46,401 nt of DNA, from positions 1-46,401 of the forward strand of contig NZ_RQVT01000011.1 of assembly GCF_004010055.1 (NCBI RefSeq), in the 5' to 3' direction. The stretch is from Psychroflexus aestuariivivens (GTDB lineage: Bacteria; Bacteroidota; Bacteroidia; Flavobacteriales; Flavobacteriaceae). Below the pieces are notes generated by a model. The model saw nothing but the letters and a program-made list of their open reading frames with translations, made no database searches and had not been told where the DNA came from. Numbering within the stretch: the stretch's first letter is position 1; every line of letters begins with the position of its first letter. This document shows positions 392 through 41,160 of this stretch, in pieces. The translations under genes were made by a program, and so were the position numbers.

Positions 392-454
392 AGCTATAAG
401 CTATAGGCTGTAATCAATAAGCTAAATGCAAAAAGCCAAAAGCCAACAGCTTCA
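392..454. repeat. Heptamer array, AGCNNNN type
   Basis: Nine consecutive 7-bp units fit an AGCNNNN pattern (AGCTATA, AGCTATA, GGCTGTA and on to AGCCAAA, AGCCAAC, AGCTTCA). No four-helix-bundle gene is next to this array, so it is a solo array. Confidence 0.75.
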
Positions 455-844
455 AGTCACCAATCTCACACCACCTCAAACATGTTTTAGCACTGAAATC
501 CCTGCATTCACGACAAGGCAAACATTAACAAAGAAATTTAGTGATTTTATTTTGGTTTTCTTTAAGAAAACGTCTTTATTTGTAGGTTGTAAGCGATGAT
601 TATAAGTTGCTTATAAAGCTAATGTTTAGTCAACTTTTGCATAACATGGCAAGTGTATTTTAGCCGATTCTAAAAGCTGACTAACCAAAGCTAAGACAAA
701 AATGAAAACATTTCATCTCTGACCTGAAAATGGGACTCAGAGTGGCGAAGCCGTGGAGAATTTTAGCCAAGGTAGAATCAGAGTCAGTGGCTATTGGCAA
801 AAAAAAGCCTAAAGATTGTAATTTGTGAAAAACATAAATTTATT
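455..844. other. Gene-free stretch
   Basis: AT-rich sequence with no credible ORF and no recognised RNA gene. I see no clear promoter or terminator in it. Confidence 0.5.
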
Positions 845-893
845 AGCTCTTAGCTTTTGGCTATTAGCAAAAACCAATCGCCGAAAGCCAATC
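845..893. repeat. Heptamer array left of four-helix-bundle copy 1
   Basis: Seven in-phase 7-bp units (AGCTCTT, AGCTTTT, GGCTATT, AGCAAAA, ACCAATC, GCCGAAA, GCCAATC) end eight bases before the ATG at 902. Because the array has few stop codons, an apparent in-frame ATG at 857 reads through it; that extension is repeat-derived. Confidence 0.75.
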
Positions 894-1050
894 AACAACA
901 AATGAGAAATTTCAGAAAGTGGGAAGTTTATAATAATGCTAAAAGTTGTTCAGTTTTAGTATATCAAATTACAAAAGACTTTCCAGAAGTTGAAAAATTT
1001 GGATTAATCAGTCAAATAAGAAGAGCTTCCGTCTCGGTAGTGGCGAATAC

Positions 1051-1342
1051 TTGACCTGTGAAATAAATTCAAAATCTTATGAAAGATTTTTTCTATATAT
1101 ACGTTTTAAAAAGTATAGTTGATGGTGAAAACTATACTGGATATACAAATGATTTGAATTTACGAATTGAGCAGCACAATAAAGGTTATGTAGAATCTAC
1201 CAAAAACCGAAGACCTTTGAAGATTATTTATTTTGAGGCTTGTTTGTCACAAAATGATGCTTTGAAAAGAGAAAAATACCTCAAAACGCATTATGGTAAA
1301 ATGTTTTTAAAAAAACGACTCAAATCGTATTTCACAGGTTAG
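1051..1342 (+). mobile_element. Small GIY-YIG insertion with 12-bp inverted ends
   Basis: The segment splitting the four-helix-bundle gene is bounded by ACCTGTGAAATA (1054-1065) and its exact reverse complement TATTTCACAGGT (1328-1339). The only gene inside is a GIY-YIG nuclease whose last codons and stop are formed by the right inverted repeat. Comparison with the intact paralogue at 6165 places the junctions within a few bases. No target duplication is evident. The behaviour suggests a homing-type or transposon-like unit, but mobility is inferred from one insertion. Confidence 0.7.
1079..1342 (+). CDS. GIY-YIG domain endonuclease (UvrC N-terminal/YhbQ-like)
   Basis: This 87-residue protein is essentially one GIY-YIG nuclease domain. 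Visible motifs are YIYVLKS (6-12) and YTGYT (19-23), an arginine at R29 in NLRIEQHN, and the metal-binding glutamate at E65 in KREKYLKT. Stand-alone GIY-YIG proteins of this size are common in Bacteroidota and their substrates are mostly unknown. The gene lies inside an interrupted four-helix-bundle gene between perfect 12-bp inverted repeats, and its final residues (YFTG) and stop are encoded by the right repeat. That arrangement suggests the nuclease promotes its own spread. It could equally be a housekeeping repair-type nuclease carried passively. Confidence 0.85.
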   Translation: MKDFFYIYVLKSIVDGENYTGYTNDLNLRIEQHNKGYVESTKNRRPLKIIYFEACLSQNDALKREKYLKTHYGKMFLKKRLKSYFTG

Positions 1343-1547
1343 ACAGAAGGTGCTAGTAGATCAACAGATAAGAATTTTAAACACTTTTTGACGATGTCTT
1401 TAGGCTCATCTTTCGAAATTGAAGCTCAGTTAGATATTTCATTAGAATTAGGGTTTATTACAGAAAAAGATTATAAGGAAATCAGCAGTAGAAATGAGGT
1501 TATCCAAAAACAATTAAACGCTTTCATCTCAAAACTTAAAAAATATT

Positions 1548-1610
1548 AACCAACAGCCAAAGGCTAATCCCCAACTGCCAAAAGCCAACAGCCAAAGGTT
1601 AATCGCCAAC
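1548..1610. repeat. Heptamer array right of four-helix-bundle copy 1
   Basis: Nine in-phase 7-bp units start on the second base of the TAA stop codon of the split gene (AACCAAC, AGCCAAA, GGCTAAT, CCCCAAC, TGCCAAA, AGCCAAC, AGCCAAA, GGTTAAT, CGCCAAC). The array fills most of the gap to the epimerase gene. Confidence 0.8.
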
Positions 1611-3287: not shown

Positions 3288-5084
3288 ATGAATAAAATTA
3301 AACGTCTGATAGCTAAACACTTCACTAACTTTACCTATTTTTACCGCCATCTTAGGTACAGAATCTTTGTTGCTGTAGGTTTGAGTATAGCCGTAGGGAC
3401 CTTAGATGGTTTTGGACTTTCTATGTTTTTACCCCTGCTGCAAATGGTTAATGACTCATCGAATGTTGATACCGATGGTATGGGTAAACTTAGGTTTTTA
3501 GTAGATTTTATAGAGGATTCAGGAATTGAACTCACACTCGTAAGTGTACTTGCATTTATGTTTTTCTTCTTCTTGTTAAAGGGTATAGCAAAGTATGTTA
3601 GTGGAAGATACAATATATCAATACAACAATTTTTCGTTAGAAAATTAAGACTTAAAATCCTAACAGGGCTGTCAACACTTAGCTTTAAAAAGTTTATAAC
3701 TTCTGACTCTGGTCGTATTCAGAATACGATGACTGGCGAGGTAGAAAGACTTGCAAAATCATTCAGTAGTTATTTTAGTGCAATACAGCAAGGTGTGATA
3801 GTGAGTGTTTATATTGTTTTTACATTTTTTATAGATTTTCAATTTGCAATCTTAGTAGTAATTGGTGGTTTTTTAACGAATTTCATCTACCGTATTGTAT
3901 ACATTAAAACGAAGTCTGCTTCAAAAGAATTAACTACTCAAAACCATGAATACCAAGGGTTAGTGCTTCAACAAGTCGGAAATTTTAAATATTTAAGATC
4001 AACAGGAACAGAAGAGCTGTATGAAAAAAAATTACGAAATTCAGTATATCAAATAGAGGGCTCAAGAAAGAAAATAGGTTTTCTAAATGCATTTCTTTTG
4101 TCTGTAAAAGAACCAATGATGGTAGGGGTTGTAGCTTTAGTAATTATCTTGCAAACTAAATTTTTGGGTGGGACGCTAGGGCCTATTTTGATTAGCCTTC
4201 TGTTTTTTTACAGAGCTTTAGCTATATTATTGGTTATGCAATCACAATGGAATGCTTATCTGTCTGTTTCAGGGTCAATGGAAAATATGAAAGAGTTTCA
4301 GGGTGAATTAGAAGAAAACAAGGAAACGCAAGGAGATCAACAAATTGTTTTTTTTGAGAAAGCGCTATCATTGAATAATGTCTCATTTAATTATGGTGAG
4401 GAAAGAATTCTTTATGATATAAACCTGAACATTAAAAAAGATGAAACAGTAGCTTTTGTAGGGGAAAGTGGTAGTGGGAAAACAACACTTATAAATTTAT
4501 TAGCTGGATTAATGCCAGTTGATGGTGGGGAATTTACCGTTGATGGTATTGAACGTAATGATTTGGATGTGCATTCATACCAAAGACGCATAGGCTACAT
4601 TACCCAAGAGCCGGTGGTATTTAATGATACTATTTTAAATAATGTAACTTTTTGGTCAGAACCAAATCCAAATACTTTAAGGCAATTTAAAAAAGCCTGC
4701 AAACAAGCAGCTATTTGGGATTTTATTCAAACCCTGCCCAATAGAGAAGATACGGAGTTGGGTAATAATGGTATAAATTTGAGCGGAGGGCAAAAACAAA
4801 GAATTTCTATTGCACGAGAACTCTATAAAGATATTGATATTTTAATTATGGATGAGGCGACATCAGCTCTTGATAGTGAAACGGAAAAGAGCATAAAGAA
4901 AAATATCGAAAATTTAAAAGGGCAGTATACAATACTTGTAGTAGCACATCGCTTATCCACAATAAAGAATGCTGACCGAGTAGTTTTCATGGAAAACGGA
5001 CAAATAAAAGATATCGGTCGATATGAAGAACTGGTTGATAGAGCTCCTAAGTTTAAGAAAATGGTTGAATTACAGGAAGTTTAA
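3288..5084 (+). CDS. ABC exporter with fused membrane and ATPase domains, probable oligosaccharide flippase
   Basis: A 598-residue half-transporter of the MsbA/PglK type. The N-terminal part has about six hydrophobic segments (roughly 25-50, 85-105, 165-205, 275-320). The C-terminal ATPase carries Walker A GESGSGKTT (392-400), signature LSGGQ (498-502), Walker B ILIMDEA (518-524) and the switch histidine H554 in VVAHRLST. Such proteins flip lipid-linked oligosaccharides or lipid A core across the inner membrane. No Wzx-type flippase is seen in this locus, so this is the best candidate for moving the repeat unit, as PglK does in Campylobacter. A decayed relative of its ATPase domain lies at 15949-16303. 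The substrate is inferred from context only. Confidence 0.88.
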   Translation: MNKIKRLIAKHFTNFTYFYRHLRYRIFVAVGLSIAVGTLDGFGLSMFLPLLQMVNDSSNVDTDGMGKLRFLVDFIEDSGIELTLVSVLAFMFFFFLLKGIAKYVSGRYNISIQQFFVRKLRLKILTGLSTLSFKKFITSDSGRIQNTMTGEVERLAKSFSSYFSAIQQGVIVSVYIVFTFFIDFQFAILVVIGGFLTNFIYRIVYIKTKSASKELTTQNHEYQGLVLQQVGNFKYLRSTGTEELYEKKLRNSVYQIEGSRKKIGFLNAFLLSVKEPMMVGVVALVIILQTKFLGGTLGPILISLLFFYRALAILLVMQSQWNAYLSVSGSMENMKEFQGELEENKETQGDQQIVFFEKALSLNNVSFNYGEERILYDINLNIKKDETVAFVGESGSGKTTLINLLAGLMPVDGGEFTVDGIERNDLDVHSYQRRIGYITQEPVVFNDTILNNVTFWSEPNPNTLRQFKKACKQAAIWDFIQTLPNREDTELGNNGINLSGGQKQRISIARELYKDIDILIMDEATSALDSETEKSIKKNIENLKGQYTILVVAHRLSTIKNADRVVFMENGQIKDIGRYEELVDRAPKFKKMVELQEV

Positions 5085-5112
5085 GGATTTTGTATAACAA
5101 ATAACCAGATAA

Positions 5113-6132
5113 ATGAATATAAAAAACAAATCAATTTTAATAACAGGAGGGACAGGCTCTCTTGGTAAAGCGTTAACAAGCCATATTTTATCTAACTATG
5201 AGGGTGTAAGAAAATTGGTGATTTACTCAAGAGATGAGCAGAAGCAGTTCCAGATGGCACAAGAGTTTCCTACAGATCAATATCCGCAAATACGTTTTTT
5301 GATTGGAGATGTAAGAGATAAAGACCGACTATCAAGAGCCTTTAAAGATATTGACTATGTCATTCATGCGGCAGCGATGAAACATGTGCATTTAGCAGAA
5401 TACAATCCAGATGAATGCGTAAAAACAAATATTGGCGGTGCTGAAAATGTGATTCATGCTTCATTAGAAACCAATGTAGAGCGAGTGGTAGCTTTATCAA
5501 CAGACAAAGCTTGTGCTCCAATCAATTTATATGGAGCCACAAAGTTAACTTCAGATAAGTTGTTCGTTGCAGCCAATAACATCACCGGATGGAATCCTAT
5601 CAAGTTTTCTGTAGTACGCTATGGAAACGTCATGGGTAGTAACGGTTCGGTTATCCCATTTTTCCTAAATAAACGCAATGAAGGCATTTTACCAATTACA
5701 GATCCTAACATGACGCGTTTTAATATCTCCTTGCAGGGTGGCGTAGATATGGTCATGCATGCCTTAGCGCAGGCTTGGGGTGGTGAAATTTTTATCCCGA
5801 AAATACCATCGTATAGAATTATGGATGTCGCCAATGCCGTTGCGCCTCATTGTGAGCACAAAGTTGTCGGAATCAGACCTGGGGAAAAAGTACATGAAGA
5901 AATGATCACCCCGTCAGATTCTTTTTATACCTACGATTTAGGAAAATATTACACCATTCTCCCATCCAAACCAAAGTGGAAAGTAGATGATTTTATTGCT
6001 GAACACAAAGCTAAAAAAGTAGAGGAAGGCTTTGCCTACAACTCTGGAGAAAACACCGAATGGGAAACGGTGGAATCGCTTAGAAGTTTGATTAAAGAGC
6101 ATGTAGATCCATCGTTTGAAGTGAACGAATAG
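5113..6132 (+). CDS. pseB: UDP-N-acetylglucosamine 4,6-dehydratase (inverting)
   Basis: A 339-residue extended SDR. The nucleotide motif GGTGSLG is at 12-18, followed by SRDEQKQF, AAAMKHVHLAEYNP, STDKACAPINLYGATK (with the catalytic TDK and YxxxK) and RYGNVMGSNGSVIPFF. This set is characteristic of PseB, which removes water from UDP-GlcNAc with inversion at C5 to start pseudaminic acid synthesis. Length and motifs match the family. The gene is 28 bases after the ABC exporter. In most genomes pseB and pseC are adjacent; here a four-helix-bundle gene with heptamer arrays sits between them, and the left array starts within the TAG stop codon of this gene. Confidence 0.93.
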   Translation: MNIKNKSILITGGTGSLGKALTSHILSNYEGVRKLVIYSRDEQKQFQMAQEFPTDQYPQIRFLIGDVRDKDRLSRAFKDIDYVIHAAAMKHVHLAEYNPDECVKTNIGGAENVIHASLETNVERVVALSTDKACAPINLYGATKLTSDKLFVAANNITGWNPIKFSVVRYGNVMGSNGSVIPFFLNKRNEGILPITDPNMTRFNISLQGGVDMVMHALAQAWGGEIFIPKIPSYRIMDVANAVAPHCEHKVVGIRPGEKVHEEMITPSDSFYTYDLGKYYTILPSKPKWKVDDFIAEHKAKKVEEGFAYNSGENTEWETVESLRSLIKEHVDPSFEVNE

Positions 6133-6165
6133 CCATTAGCTTTTAGCCTTTAGCAATTAGCCAAA
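6131..6165. repeat. Heptamer array left of four-helix-bundle copy 2
   Basis: Five in-phase units (AGCCATT, AGCTTTT, AGCCTTT, AGCAATT, AGCCAAA) run from the second base of the pseB stop codon to the first base of the ATG of the next gene. The whole gap between the two genes is heptamers. Confidence 0.85.
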
Positions 6166-6518
6166 TGAGAAATTTTAGAAAATGGGACGTTTATAATAAT
6201 GCAAAAAGTTGTTCAATTTTGATTTACCAATTTACAAAAGACTTTCCAGATGATGAAAAGTTTGGCTTAATTAGTCAGTTGAGAAGGGCATCAATTTCAA
6301 TTGTTGCAAATATTGCGGAAGGTTCTAGCAGATCATCAGAGAAGAATTTCAAACATTTTTTAAGTATGTCCCTAGGGTCTTCATTTGAAATAGAAGCACT
6401 TTTGGAAATATCTTTGGAATTAGGTTATATTTCTGTTGAAAATTCTAATGACATCATGAAGAAAAATGAGATTATACAAAAGCAACTCAATGCATTTATT
6501 TCAAAACTTAATAAATAA
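6165..6518 (+). CDS. Four-helix-bundle protein (S23-like), copy 2
   Basis: An intact 117-residue protein, MRNFRKWDVYNN to FISKLNK, of the 23S rRNA intervening-sequence / four-helix-bundle family. Recognisable landmarks are FPDDEKFGLISQLRRAS, NIAEGSSRSSEKNF and SLGSSFEIEALLEIS. Relatives occur inside rRNA intervening sequences and as bAvd accessory proteins of diversity-generating retroelements. The role of free-standing copies is unknown; binding nucleic acid through a basic oligomeric surface is plausible. It separates pseB from pseC, which are normally neighbours, and nothing suggests a metabolic job. Heptamer arrays abut both sides. It is closely similar to the split copy at 902 and more distant from the copy at 40700. 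Confidence 0.88.
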   Translation: MRNFRKWDVYNNAKSCSILIYQFTKDFPDDEKFGLISQLRRASISIVANIAEGSSRSSEKNFKHFLSMSLGSSFEIEALLEISLELGYISVENSNDIMKKNEIIQKQLNAFISKLNK

Positions 6519-6523
6519 TTAGT

Positions 6524-7900
6524 ATGTCATCCATAAAGCCAAAAGCTAATAGCCAACAGCCAACAGCCATACCTTACGGCAAACAAAACATCACTGAAGA
6601 AGATATCAAGGCCGTTGTTGAAGTCTTAAAGTCAGACTACTTGACCCAAGGGCCAAAAATTGCTGAGTTCGAAAAAGAATTTGCCAACTATGTCGGTTCA
6701 AAATATGCCATAGCAGTGTCTAATGGAACCGCAGCTTTGCATTTAAATGCTTTAGCGCTAGGAGTCAAATCTGGCGATAAAGTGATTACCACACCCATCA
6801 CTTTTGCTGCATCCGCCAATTGTGTGCGCTATTGTGGTGGTGAAGTGGTTTTTTCCGATATAGACCCAAAGACCTATTTATTAGATATTGAAAATGTAAG
6901 AGAACTTCTGGAAGCAGATACAAAAAAAGAAATCAAAGGCATCATCCCCGTTGATTTTGCGGGTAGAGCAGTAGATTTGGAAGCCTTTAGAAAATTAGCA
7001 GATGAATTTAATTGCTGGATTATTGAGGATTCCTGCCATTCACCTGGCGGCTTTTTTACCGATAGTAAAGGCCAAAAGCAACACTGTGGGAATGGCAATT
7101 TTGCTGACTTAGCTATTTTTTCATTTCACCCAGTCAAACATATCGCGGCAGGTGAAGGCGGAATGATTACGACCAATGACGAAACGCTATACCAAAAGCT
7201 CACAGAACTAAGAACACACGGCATCACCAAAGACAGCAGTAAATTTCAAAATAATGTGCATTTAGCCCTTGGCGATTGGCAATTAGCAAAAAGCCAACAG
7301 CCAACAGCCAACAGCCAGGAACAAGCAGCCAACAGCCAACAGCTAACGGCTAACAGCTATCCGAACTGGTACATGGAAATGCAAAACCTCGGCTACAACT
7401 ACCGGCTAACCGATTTTCAAGCAGCCTTAGGCTTAAGCCAACTCAAACGAGCTAATAAAGGTTTAATAAAACGCCACGAAATTGCAGCTAGATATTTTGA
7501 AGCATTTAAATCGATACCACAAATCACAGATCGAAATATAGAGTCTAATACAAGTCAAACGCCAACAGCCAACAGCCAATCGCCAACAGCTGAAAGCAAG
7601 CCAACAGCCAACAGCCAACAGCTAACAGCTAATGCCCACGCCCACCATCTCTACGTCATCGAAGTTGAAAACAGACTTGGGCTTTATAATTATTTGAGAG
7701 AGAATCATATCTATACACAGATCCATTATATTCCTTGTCATTTGATGCCCTACTACAAAGAACAAGGCTGGAAAGAAGGAGATCTGCCTAATGCGGAAGC
7801 TTATTACACGAGTTGTATTAGTTTGCCGATGTTCCCAAGTTTAAAAATAGAGGAGCAGGAGTTTGTTATTAAAAAGATCAAAGAATTTTTAAAGCAATAG
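6524..7900 (+). CDS. pseC: UDP-4-keto-sugar aminotransferase (DegT/DnrJ family) with repeat-derived insertions
   Basis: A 458-residue PLP aminotransferase matching PseC, which adds the 4-amino group to the PseB product. Typical stretches are IPYGKQNITEEDIKAV (16-31), AVSNGTAALHLNALALG (64-80), the PLP lysine K205 in FHPVKHIAAGEGG, MEMQNLGYNYRLTDFQAA (284-301) and HYIPCHLMPYY (401-411). Family members are usually about 380-400 residues. The excess is explained by three AGCCAAN heptamer arrays translated in frame: residues about 5-15, 248-279 and 343-370, giving QQPTANS-like heptapeptides. All lie at the terminus or in apparent loops, and the catalytic blocks are intact, so activity is plausible. 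The ATG at 6524, six bases after the previous stop, is the only credible start. Confidence 0.9.
   Translation: MSSIKPKANSQQPTAIPYGKQNITEEDIKAVVEVLKSDYLTQGPKIAEFEKEFANYVGSKYAIAVSNGTAALHLNALALGVKSGDKVITTPITFAASANCVRYCGGEVVFSDIDPKTYLLDIENVRELLEADTKKEIKGIIPVDFAGRAVDLEAFRKLADEFNCWIIEDSCHSPGGFFTDSKGQKQHCGNGNFADLAIFSFHPVKHIAAGEGGMITTNDETLYQKLTELRTHGITKDSSKFQNNVHLALGDWQLAKSQQPTANSQEQAANSQQLTANSYPNWYMEMQNLGYNYRLTDFQAALGLSQLKRANKGLIKRHEIAARYFEAFKSIPQITDRNIESNTSQTPTANSQSPTAESKPTANSQQLTANAHAHHLYVIEVENRLGLYNYLRENHIYTQIHYIPCHLMPYYKEQGWKEGDLPNAEAYYTSCISLPMFPSLKIEEQEFVIKKIKEFLKQ
6537..6571. repeat. Heptamer array in the pseC N-terminus
   Basis: Five units (AGCCAAA, AGCTAAT, AGCCAAC, AGCCAAC, AGCCATA) encode most of the first 15 residues of PseC. 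It is also the right-hand array of four-helix-bundle copy 2. Confidence 0.85.
7264..7361. repeat. Heptamer array inside pseC, first internal
   Basis: Fourteen consecutive 7-bp units occupy 98 bases, including AGCCAAC five times and AGCTAAC, GGCTAAC and AGCTATC at the end. The encoded peptide is the Gln/Asn/Ser/Thr/Ala-rich insert at about residues 248-279, just before the conserved block beginning WYMEMQNLGYNYR. Confidence 0.9.
7553..7633. repeat. Heptamer array inside pseC, second internal
   Basis: Six units (7553-7594) and five units (7599-7633) are separated by a 4-base slip. They encode the insert at about residues 343-370, before HHLYVIEV. Pure runs are short: two AGCCAAC units in a row at most before the slip is counted, three after it. 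Confidence 0.9.
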
Positions 7901-7933
7901 GATAGATTCTTAATTATATAAATGGATATATAA

Positions 7934-8776
7934 ATGAGTACTTTAATCAATAAAATAGGGGTTGGCACGGTTCAGTTTGGAATTGATTATGGTATTTCAA
8001 ATAATGAAGGGAAAACTCCATTATCAGAGGTAAAAAAAATCTTGGAGTATTCCCTCAATATAGGAATAGAATATATCGACACGGCTTTCGCCTATGGTAA
8101 TGCTGAAGAAGTACTTGGGAACTTTGACCTTTCTGACTTTAAAATTATTTCAAAATATATTCCTAAGCCTGAATTTAACTTGAATTCTCAATTCAAAGAA
8201 TCATTAAATCGATTGAAATTATCCAGTATTTATGGGTATATGGCTCATAGGCCTTTGGATTTATTAGAAGATAAATGTAAGGCATGGCAACAATTACAAG
8301 AATTAAAAAATGAGGGATTAGTAAAAAAGATAGGAGCTTCATTTAATACTATTAAAGAATTTGAAAAATTAAAATCTCATAAAATCGAGTTAGATATTAT
8401 CCAGGTTCCTTATAATTATTTCGACCGGCGTTTTGAATTAATCATGAGAAAATTAAAGGACAACGGTTGTGAAATCCATACAAGATCTACTTTTTTGCAA
8501 GGATTATTTTTTTATCCAACTGATTCATTGCATCCTTTTTTTCAGGATATCAAAGAAGATCTTAAAATTCTACAGAGCTACGACAATCTTGCAAACAGAT
8601 TATTAGCTCATTCTCTTAATATAGACTTTATTGATGTCGTAAATATTGGAGTGAATAATTTAAATCAATTGAAAGAAAATACTAAAGAATTAGATCAAAA
8701 TTTATTTGATTTACCTGTTATGAACAAACAAATTAATAACAACATTCTAACTCCTTCCTCATGGCCGCAAAATTAA
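7934..8776 (+). CDS. Aldo/keto reductase family protein
   Basis: A 280-residue TIM-barrel aldo/keto reductase. The usual catalytic tetrad is visible: D49 and Y54 in IDTAFAYGNAEE, K74 in IISKYI and H105 in YMAHRP. Such enzymes use NADPH to reduce carbonyls, although some members near nonulosonic acid genes have no known substrate. The gene is 33 bases after pseC, and its 3' end overlaps the next gene by 16 bases, so it is co-translated with the oxidoreductases that follow. In this setting it probably acts on a keto-sugar intermediate of the pseudaminic-type sugar. The exact step is not known to me. Confidence 0.85.
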   Translation: MSTLINKIGVGTVQFGIDYGISNNEGKTPLSEVKKILEYSLNIGIEYIDTAFAYGNAEEVLGNFDLSDFKIISKYIPKPEFNLNSQFKESLNRLKLSSIYGYMAHRPLDLLEDKCKAWQQLQELKNEGLVKKIGASFNTIKEFEKLKSHKIELDIIQVPYNYFDRRFELIMRKLKDNGCEIHTRSTFLQGLFFYPTDSLHPFFQDIKEDLKILQSYDNLANRLLAHSLNIDFIDVVNIGVNNLNQLKENTKELDQNLFDLPVMNKQINNNILTPSSWPQN

Positions 8777-9669
8777 AGATTGGTATTATTGGAATGAGTG
8801 AGGGGAACGGACATCCATACTCATGGGCTGCTATTTTTAATGGCTATAATAAAAATGAAATGTCTAGATGTCCATTTCCGGTAATTCCAGAATATTTATC
8901 TCAACAAATATTTCCTGATGATTTTTTAACTCATCGAGCTGAAGTTTCACATATTTGGACGCAAAACGTTGAAGTTACAAAACATATCGCTTTATGTTCA
9001 AACATTCCTAATATATGTAATACTATAGAAGAAATGGTATCCAACGTTGATGCTGTCCTATTGGCAAGAGACGATGCAGAAAATCATTTAAAATATGCAA
9101 AACCAGTTTTAAAAGCTGGAATACCTATTTATATAGACAAACCTTTTGCACTGAACACAACTGACGCCGATAAACTCTTAAATTTAGCAAAGCATCCTAA
9201 TCAAATATTTACCTGCTCAGCTTTACAGTTTGCTGAAGAATTTCAACTTATAAACTTAGATTTAGCTAAAATCGGTGCCATAAAAAGCATTTCTGCAATG
9301 GTTCCTAAAAGTTGGGAAAAATATGCTGTTCATATAATAGAGCCAGTTTTAAATTTGATTCCCGAAAGAGGGAATATTAAATCAATTGAACGTATTAAAA
9401 CAGAAGTGAAAGATATTATAAGTGTACAGGTTAATTGGACTTCTGAAATTACAGCTAACTTTCAAACTTTTGGAAAATTAGGAGCACCACTTTCTATTCG
9501 TATTGTTGGAACTGAAGGATACAAGGATTTATATATAAAAGATACTTATAGTGCTTTTAAGTCTGCATTAAATAGGTTTTTAGATGTAATTGAAGATCAT
9601 GAGCCTAATATTTCAAGAGAATTCACAATGGAAATGATTCAAATTTTAGAAAAAGGACAATATGCGTAG
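8761..9669 (+). CDS. Gfo/Idh/MocA family oxidoreductase
   Basis: A 302-residue protein with an N-terminal Rossmann fold (KIGIIGMSEGNGHPYSWA at 5-22) and the family lysine in GIPIYIDKPFAL (about 124-135), equivalent to the EKP motif. The loop after the first strand is long and contains GNGHPYSW instead of a compact GxGxxG, a sign of an unusual subfamily. The gene overlaps both neighbours, by 16 bases upstream and 8 bases downstream. Members of this family oxidise or reduce hydroxyls of nucleotide sugars. Together with the flanking aldo/keto reductase and SDR it may remodel one stereocentre of the nonulosonic acid precursor. Confidence 0.82.
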   Translation: MAAKLKIGIIGMSEGNGHPYSWAAIFNGYNKNEMSRCPFPVIPEYLSQQIFPDDFLTHRAEVSHIWTQNVEVTKHIALCSNIPNICNTIEEMVSNVDAVLLARDDAENHLKYAKPVLKAGIPIYIDKPFALNTTDADKLLNLAKHPNQIFTCSALQFAEEFQLINLDLAKIGAIKSISAMVPKSWEKYAVHIIEPVLNLIPERGNIKSIERIKTEVKDIISVQVNWTSEITANFQTFGKLGAPLSIRIVGTEGYKDLYIKDTYSAFKSALNRFLDVIEDHEPNISREFTMEMIQILEKGQYA

Positions 9670-40555: not shown

Positions 40556-40607
40556 GAGAAGCCTAAACCTGTAGCTTGCAACCTAAAATCACAATTATAG
40601 AGATAAA

Positions 40608-40642
40608 AGCTTTAAGCAGTAGGCAATAAGCTGTAAGCCATT
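40608..40642. repeat. Heptamer array left of four-helix-bundle copy 3
   Basis: Five in-phase units (AGCTTTA, AGCAGTA, GGCAATA, AGCTGTA, AGCCATT) lie about 60 bases before the ATG at 40700. Confidence 0.7.
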
Positions 40643-40699: not shown

Positions 40700-41053
40700 A
40701 TGAGAAATTTTAAAAAATATGATATTTGGAAGTTAAGTCATCAACTCACTTTAGAGATTTATCATATCACAAAAAATTTCCCAAATAGTGAGAAGTATCA
40801 GTTAATATCTCAAATGCAAAGAGCGGCTTATTCTATACCCTCTAATTTCAGTGAAGGAGCAGGTAGGTACTCAGATAAGGAATTTAATCGCTTCATTCAA
40901 ATATCGCTTGGATCAGCACATGAATTAGAATATTTCATTTTTTTGTCTAAAGACTTAGGGTATTTAGATGAAATTAAGTTTCAAGAGTTAGACAATAATA
41001 TTAACACTCTCAAAAAGAAAATTTTTAGTTTAAGTAAAAAGTTAACTTCATAG
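40700..41053 (+). CDS. Four-helix-bundle protein (S23-like), copy 3
   Basis: An intact 117-residue protein, MRNFKKYDIWKLSHQLTLEI onward, with FPNSEKYQLISQMQRAAYSI, NFSEGAGRYSDKEFNRFI and SLGSAHELEYFIFLSKDLGY. It is the same family as the genes at 902 and 6165 but from a distinct branch (SEGAG in place of AEGSS, and an IWKLSHQL start). Heptamer arrays lie on both sides, the right one starting directly after the TAG stop. It is not expected to act in sugar metabolism and stands between an unrelated deacetylase-like gene and the GDP-mannose genes. Confidence 0.88.
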   Translation: MRNFKKYDIWKLSHQLTLEIYHITKNFPNSEKYQLISQMQRAAYSIPSNFSEGAGRYSDKEFNRFIQISLGSAHELEYFIFLSKDLGYLDEIKFQELDNNINTLKKKIFSLSKKLTS

Positions 41054-41060
41054 TGCAATA

Positions 41061-41123
41061 AGCCTACAGCTAATAGCCTACAGCCTACAGCCTACAGCCA
41101 ATAGCCAAAAGCCAACAGCTTAT
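41061..41123. repeat. Heptamer array right of four-helix-bundle copy 3
   Basis: Nine in-phase units (AGCCTAC four times, AGCTAAT, AGCCAAT, AGCCAAA, AGCCAAC, AGCTTAT). One further degenerate unit (41054-41060) links it to the stop codon of the gene. Confidence 0.9.
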
Positions 41124-41160
41124 ATCTCAAACCATCAACAAAATCTAAAAACCAAACAAT

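Follow-up and report, generated by a model that had tools for sequence, protein, structure and literature searches.

Heptamer arrays translated within a Psychroflexus pseC gene and their proposed origin in the inverted ends of IVP (S23) gene elements

The pseC gene of Psychroflexus aestuariivivens contains, at three places, tandem AGCCAAN heptamers of a family that is otherwise intergenic in the stretches examined, which raises the question of where these repeats came from and how an enzyme gene could take them up without being broken. The window analysed here is 46,401 nucleotides long and comprises one whole contig (NZ_RQVT01000011.1, forward strand) of a draft genome of 3.1 Mb that is split into 64 contigs. 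Tandem Repeats Finder (TRF) reported three period-7 arrays within the open frame 6524–7900, each with the consensus AGCCAAC or a rotation of it and with degenerate units (76–84% matches): 6537–6569 at the 5' end of the gene (4.7 units), 7292–7357 in its middle (9.4 units) and 7561–7629 (10.3 units). A periodic scan for AGCCAAN placed the same regions at 6530–6571, 7278–7361 and 7553–7640, and no region was obtained from its control, the reversed sequence (175,531 bases); exact three-unit AGCCAAN matches numbered 5 in the whole genome, some of them overlapping, and 0 in the backward-read control. The original prediction of arrays at the start of pseC and at two internal sites is confirmed, with corrections to extent. 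The middle array, given as 7264–7361 with 14 units, is real but begins later and has 9.4 units by TRF, whereas the third, given as 7553–7633 with 11 units, stands except for a unit count above the 10.3 of TRF. Because the native stretch 7241–7276 aligns without gaps to the nearest orthologue (GCCCTTGGCGAT versus GCAATTGGTGAT), the middle array starts at about 7285–7292. On the plus strand, we accordingly delimit site 1 at 6530–6571 (TRF, scan and alignment), site 2 at 7292–7361 and site 3 at 7553–7640. Sites 2 and 3 can be aligned over about 70 nt, including an irregular middle, with a score of 46, compared with at most 33 for the other four arrays tried, which suggests that one may have been copied from the other, a hint only, as repeats align easily.

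The 458 aa product of the gene (6524–7900, plus strand) can be identified as PseC, UDP-4-amino-4,6-dideoxy-N-acetyl-beta-L-altrosamine transaminase: it passes the NCBIfam equivalog cut-off (TIGR03588, 446.5 versus 423.5 bits; PF01041, 350.5 bits), has the core of a PLP enzyme and an HPVKH block that is invariant among the aligned PseC sequences, and its gene adjoins pseB upstream (5113–6132, plus strand; UDP-GlcNAc 4,6-dehydratase, inverting; TIGR03589, 509.2 bits, cut-off 407.75). A match of some kind was present in 138 of 149 relatives searched, most at 30–40% identity and probably representing other enzymes of the family; the nine best loci were used as orthologues, with start codons chosen by script (one, L061, has no Met start). 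All nine have pseB upstream of pseC. At 458 aa against 380–407 aa, the Psychroflexus protein is 51–78 residues longer than these orthologues. An alignment with other PseC proteins had been suggested as a check; in it, all three array segments are insertions absent from 9/9 orthologues, and both internal insertions fall where the orthologues themselves vary in length. Relative to ArnB (1mdo), residues 240–286 stand opposite 13 residues and 333–369 opposite 10, facing lengths that were read off where three aligned stretches stop, the second and third of which are weak on their own.

An AlphaFold2 model built from the ten-sequence alignment (best of five; mean pLDDT 71, pTM 0.71) matches the folds of ArnB and of Helicobacter PseC (2fn6), with TM-scores by target length of 0.83–0.86. 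Its pLDDT is below 50 at residues 1–3, 5–11, 243–256, 258–290 and 335–371, and likewise at 204–209 and 232–238. The earlier placement of the repeats in loops is consistent with this low confidence and with the absence of the internal inserts from orthologues, and the model predicts these inserts to be disordered surface loops; since low pLDDT also follows where inserts are uncovered by other alignment rows, surface exposure is to be read as a prediction. Outside the inserts, comparison with the nearest orthologue over 357 codons gave a dN of 0.13 and a dS of about 2, near saturation, as for a gene evolving under purifying selection. The claim of intact catalytic blocks is borne out by the TIGR03588 score, the invariant HPVKH and these substitution rates, and so is the wider claim that a repeat family made its way into a coding gene and left it unbroken.

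The original prediction overlooked a likely source of the arrays: IVP (S23) genes are flanked by such arrays in inverted orientation, and one of these genes lies directly before pseC. Located between pseB and pseC, outside any 23S rRNA gene, this gene encodes an IVP/S23 four helix bundle protein of 117 aa (6165–6518, plus strand; PF05635, 114.2 bits, cut-off 33.8; TIGR02436, 108.4, cut-off 24). Its 5' arm is an inverted array of AGCYAAN-type heptamers (6135–6162, minus strand; TRF 6130–6163) that scores 19.0 in the periodic scan, exactly the score limit, while the plus-strand reading of the same arm, 6138–6165, scores 19.5. The 3' arm is site 1, which doubles as the N-terminus of PseC (MSSIKPKANSQQPTA before IPYG). 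No IVP ORF separates pseB from pseC in any of the nine orthologous loci; the two genes overlap at TAATG in L059, L064, L065 and L066 and are about 0.6 kb apart in L060.

The window contains two more IVP genes, and all three share the layout of inverted array, gene and sense array. The second gene, at 917–1522 (plus strand), is interrupted, with PF05635 matches at 917–1048 and 1343–1522, a 5' arm at 835–869 (minus strand, periodic scan) and a 3' arm at 1548–1610 (plus strand, TRF and periodic scan). It is 84% and 75% identical in nucleotides to the gene at 6165, and the alignment of the two paralogues spans the gene and the arms and stops there, 60–70 nt beyond having been tried. The interrupting stretch, 1057–1343, carries a GIY-YIG endonuclease ORF (1079–1342) and inverted ends (TGACCTGTGAAAT / ATTTCACAGGTTA), and looks like a small inserted element. 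The third IVP gene (40700–41053, plus strand; 117 aa; PF05635, 127.9 bits) lies between an inverted 5' arm of AGCYTAN type (40605–40639, minus strand, boundaries by eye) and a 3' arm at 41054–41130 (plus strand, TRF and periodic scan). A further array, at 420–461 (plus strand, periodic scan), has no adjoining IVP gene of its own. Scored for inverted match, the arms of the element at 6165 reached 14.5, with 1 of 35 partners scoring higher, and those of the third element 18.0, the best of 35, where swapping the partners gave a median of 8.5. Folds of the joined flanks of the three window elements gave z of −1.4 (element at 6165), −2.3 and −3.1 against shuffles; the first of these and the fold of site 3 (z −0.5) are no better than shuffles. 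A minus-strand scan match at 7261–7288, with a score of 19.0, equal to the limit, and a hairpin z of −2.9, was first taken for the inverted arm of an IVP-less element at site 2, then dropped, being mostly native sequence by the alignment to the nearest orthologue; neither internal pseC site, therefore, has an inverted arm of its own.

Of the 8 PF05635 matches in the whole genome, two are the pieces of the interrupted gene and the others correspond to six genes, of which one contains an internal stop. The four IVP genes outside the window have short-period flanks by eye, with the units AGCTAAN, TTAGATN, GAGTCAG and GTTTATN. The window has no Rfam match at gathering score. As for a reverse transcriptase that might act as the mover, the genome has two RVT_1 matches, both on another contig, and no link between them and the arrays was found.

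Heptamer flanks accompany IVP genes well beyond this genome. In a discovery set of 35 loci (29 from relatives and 6 from the Psychroflexus genome; 110-nt flanks), the period-7 score was 0.62 and 0.61 in the two flanks versus 0.41 in control stretches, and the arms of one element matched each other in inverted orientation with a score of 14.6, versus 9.4 after swapping, being best partners in 10/35. An independent set was drawn from the best 80 of at least 576 confirmed IVP relatives, two of which were dropped for short flanks. The remaining 78 loci, from Bacteroidota as well as, judging by record titles, Chloroflexota, Planctomycetota, Acidobacteria and others, have no flank in common with the discovery set. 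Here the two flanks scored 0.60 and 0.59 at period 7, compared with 0.40 for the 304 control stretches; scores were elevated at periods 8 and 14 as well and near control at the remaining periods. By a strict measure, exceeding the 99th percentile of control stretches on either side, only 15/78 loci stood out at period 7 and 6 at period 8. Judged against shuffles at p 0.01, periodicity was present in at least one flank at 49/78 loci versus 14/88 control genes, and in both flanks at 25/78 versus 2/88.

The arms of these 78 loci matched in inverted orientation with a score of 15.5, against 8.9 for swapped partners (permutation p 5e-5), although an element's own arms were the single best of 78 partners in only 30. 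The inverted match exceeded the 95th percentile of swapped pairs at 49/78 IVP loci versus 9/88 control genes, which themselves showed a smaller inverted excess (10.1 versus 8.2). The direct-orientation match was raised as well, but less (12.3 versus 8.6). Two-sided arrays were present in 53 elements of both sets, out of the 112 of 113 with an intact protein, and inverted profile similarity was greater than direct similarity in 46/53. The heptamer itself differs from element to element, its likeness being weakly related to IVP relatedness over the 53 elements (Mantel r 0.23, confounded with species relatedness). Some elements (L211, L149, L195) have 8-nt units instead. An AGCCAAN-type heptamer alongside a related IVP gene also occurs in another genome (L223, by eye). 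As an association, this broad pattern, an IVP gene flanked by inverted heptamer arrays that match each other, is well supported.

These elements are strongly oriented within their surroundings. Among the 73 of 78 loci with neighbours on both sides, both neighbours run along the IVP gene in 59 and against it in 2, and 12 are mixed; where the neighbours are co-directional, the IVP gene is thus sense in 59/61 cases and antisense in 2/61 (p 2e-15), while other neighbouring gene pairs share a strand in 118/154. It seems that the IVP gene needs, or is retained only with, sense transcription. One operon junction recurs in 17 loci from many species (among them L117, L121, L138 and L006), where it holds related IVP genes before a gene whose start, by eye, resembles that of a thiolase; for 14/17 of these IVP genes, the nearest relative within the sets sits at the same junction. 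The heptamers differ from locus to locus at this junction, yet own arms score 13.4 versus 9.8 when swapped within the site (permutation p 1e-4), and are best partners in 5/17. Matched arms at a shared junction mean either that pairing is functional or that the arms correct each other.

The mismatches between arms bear on this choice. An RNA duplex of own arms is stronger than one of swapped arms (−42.5 versus −29.4). If a stem in the sense RNA were what selection preserves, G.U mismatches should outnumber A.C mismatches; the opposite was found in the 57/78 elements above the score limit, with 93 mismatches of the A.C type versus 45 of the G.U type, a 2-fold bias of which flank composition explains about 1.3-fold (by hand). 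The antisense duplex is the stronger one in 49/78 elements and the sense duplex in 26/78. Since A.C exceeds G.U and the antisense duplex is stronger in most elements, we favour, short of proof, an explanation that acts on the DNA, be it correction or some other role.

Most arrays of the AGCCAAN family have no IVP gene at their side. Only 7/32 AGCCAAN scan regions in the stretches read adjoin one (counted by hand), and many of the remainder are located on contigs C5, C28 and C64, accompanied by surface-sugar genes by eye. In 7 other genomes, 0/10 distinct AGCCAAN places fetched (of 11 listed) had an IVP ORF within 1.5 kb, and the expectation of an IVP gene beside every such array was rejected on this count. 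At the same 10 places no array lies in a sense ORF of at least 100 codons; in L088, two arrays fall within one antisense ORF composed largely of the repeat. The translated arrays of pseC are unusual among the arrays examined.

At the level of whole genomes, the two features do go together. A survey of 198 genomes for exact three-unit arrays of AGCCAAN, CTTGANT and AATACTN (union and sizes by hand) found such arrays in 33, all with IVP matches, which are present in 125 genomes and absent in 73 (33/125 versus 0/73; p 5e-8); the link is weaker without small genomes (at least 2.5 Mb: 33/111 versus 0/14; p 0.02). The three motifs hold no special place, as backward-read AGCCAAN arrays occurred in 18/198 genomes versus 8/198 for AGCCAAN itself, and the backward-read controls of CTTGANT and AATACTN in 5 and 16 genomes, respectively. 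All control-array genomes but one (G078) have IVP matches (by hand), so that tandem heptamers in general seem to accompany IVP. Backward-read control patterns are tandem in G105, G197, G033, G014 and others, amounting to more heptamer families than those named here.

The nearest known counterpart of this layout is an intervening sequence (IVS) of 23S rRNA. In Coxiella burnetii, an S23 ORF is reported to lie between terminal inverted repeats that form a 28-bp stem, with three tandem heptamers, variable in number between strains, directly 5' of the ORF; the IVS sits within 23S rRNA, is cut out by RNase III and is termed selfish by the authors, and S23 proteins are described as having no known function (Warrier 2016, PMC4990558). 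The present elements have in common with that IVS the S23/IVP ORF, the heptamers beside it and, at group level, the terminal inverted repeats around it, but they differ in lying between protein genes and in having heptamers on both sides that vary from element to element. Heptamer direct repeats were described, in a second report, as intergenic TAACTGA arrays in Beggiatoaceae, Cyanobacteria and Bacteroidetes, with composite arrays in Bacteroidetes, some of them translated inside ORFs, mostly at protein ends; the patchy distribution was taken there as horizontal transfer, for which no mechanism was evident (MacGregor 2015, PMC4679880). The main text of that paper contains no match for 23S or helix bundle. 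Compared with what it describes, the present arrays are likewise tandem heptamers, mostly intergenic and sometimes translated, but their consensus is AGCCAAC and not TAACTGA. Among the open-licence papers listed in literature searches, judged mostly by title and opening of the abstract, none links IVP genes outside rRNA to inverted heptamer arrays. Rickettsia palindromic elements offer a partial parallel, as a repeat family found in frame within coding genes. Those elements are about 100–150 bp long, with their own sequence, and are not known to carry heptamer arrays tied to an IVP gene.

We consider it probable, at roughly 0.6, that IVP elements end in these arrays and that array copies lacking the gene spread locally, including in frame into pseC. 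The AGCCAAN arrays would be the terminal repeats of elements consisting of an inverted heptamer array, the IVP (S23, four helix bundle) gene and a sense heptamer array, which sit sense in operons and probably depend on read-through transcription. One such element would have come to lie at the pseB–pseC junction, so that its 3' array now encodes the N-terminus of PseC, and gene-less array copies would then have spread locally into two permissive PseC loops. Tolerance of these inserts may be explained by two properties of the repeat: in this orientation AGCCAAN arrays contain no stop in any frame as long as T is absent from particular positions, and three units, or 21 nt, yield one heptapeptide, SQQPTAN, whatever the frame. 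As to the copying route, slippage combined with template switching between arms is our guess, and it would also keep the arms complementary. That the elements move as units, that the internal arrays derive from element arms, and what mobility, copying and function the elements may have, is inferred from these patterns; neither a target duplication nor an exact element boundary was found, and no movement was observed. Under this reading, the tie between IVP genes and arrays would give S23 proteins and the spread of heptamers each a testable cause, with arrays marking present or past IVP sites, and pseC would be a case of element ends absorbed by an intact enzyme gene, showing one way in which proteins may become longer through selfish DNA. 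A broader proposal, which we hold tentatively and at somewhat less than even odds, is that S23/IVP genes with inverted heptamer arrays form one widespread class of bacterial mobile element, of which the 23S rRNA IVSs would be the rRNA-dwelling members; the arrays would be its ends, their sequence turning over while the ends stay matched, and could spread without the gene, becoming the source of many orphan intergenic arrays and, rarely, of arrays inside proteins.

Among the findings against an origin in elements are that most AGCCAAN regions lack an IVP neighbour and that the internal sites lack an inverted arm, and both fit a rival account in which replication slippage built up the internal arrays on the spot out of a short AGCCAAC-like sequence native to the gene, the IVP element explaining site 1 at most. 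Slippage is the ordinary growth route of tandem arrays, and the loops concerned vary in length among the orthologues. We nevertheless regard this account as unlikely, given that the same degenerate heptamer recurs in 32 scan regions, among them the two arms of the element that immediately precedes pseC, that sites 2 and 3 have an irregular middle in common, and that a seed array is present in 0/9 orthologues. The PseC pathway makes a surface sugar, and with a unit of 7 nt, not a multiple of three, the coding arrays might instead form a contingency switch, in which gain or loss of a unit shifts the frame and turns PseC and surface pseudaminic acid on or off. The gene and its pathway suit such a switch, but the degeneracy of the units (76–84% matches) lowers slippage, and comparable arrays occupy intergenic positions in this genome; we consider a switch improbable.

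Selection of the inserted peptide itself, rich in Gln, Pro, Thr, Ala, Asn and Ser, as a linker or binding surface would be in keeping with the open frames of the arrays. Whereas the 12 intergenic arrays of the AGCCAAN family are open in only 15/36 frames, each of the three coding arrays is free of stops in the frame that is translated. However, open frames are needed merely for upkeep of the enzyme, the low model confidence suggests no fold, and the insert occurs in 0/9 orthologues, and we give this explanation very little credence. Among the units of the intergenic arrays, T occupies the N in 4/29 and position 4 in 8/29; from these letters we estimate by hand that about 62% of three-unit blocks are stop-free, so open arrays of the length found in pseC are possible by chance, with some stops probably avoided or lost. 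Least credible of all is an assembly artefact: although the genome is a draft of 64 contigs and the window is one whole contig, unique sequence surrounds the arrays, their unit makeup varies from one to another, the reading frame is preserved, and the same heptamer stands beside a related IVP gene in another genome (L223, by eye).

A second translated array, parallel to site 1 of pseC, was found in the independent set: at 1/35 loci with a strong 3' array, L199 from Flavobacteriales, an ATG precedes the midpoint of the array and is in frame with a long open stretch beyond it. The gene encodes an epimerase with a polysaccharide C-terminal domain, and its product would begin MSKQQPPITNHQSPIT directly before the nucleotide-binding motif; no ATG, GTG or TTG is in frame between the array and this motif. 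L199 parallels pseC as a polysaccharide gene that a 3' IVP array would start. Extended intergenic regions of L045 (contig C28, at about 4730–5200 and 7700–9400) consist of many different heptamers (CTGAAAN, CTAAAAN, CAACCTG, AGCCAAN) as well as the octamer ACCAGTCN, on a contig without a PF05635 match. An AGCCAAG-type array of 154 nt occupies 5984–6137 of L046 (contig C64, minus strand), and the ORFs near it resemble, by eye, polysaccharide export genes.
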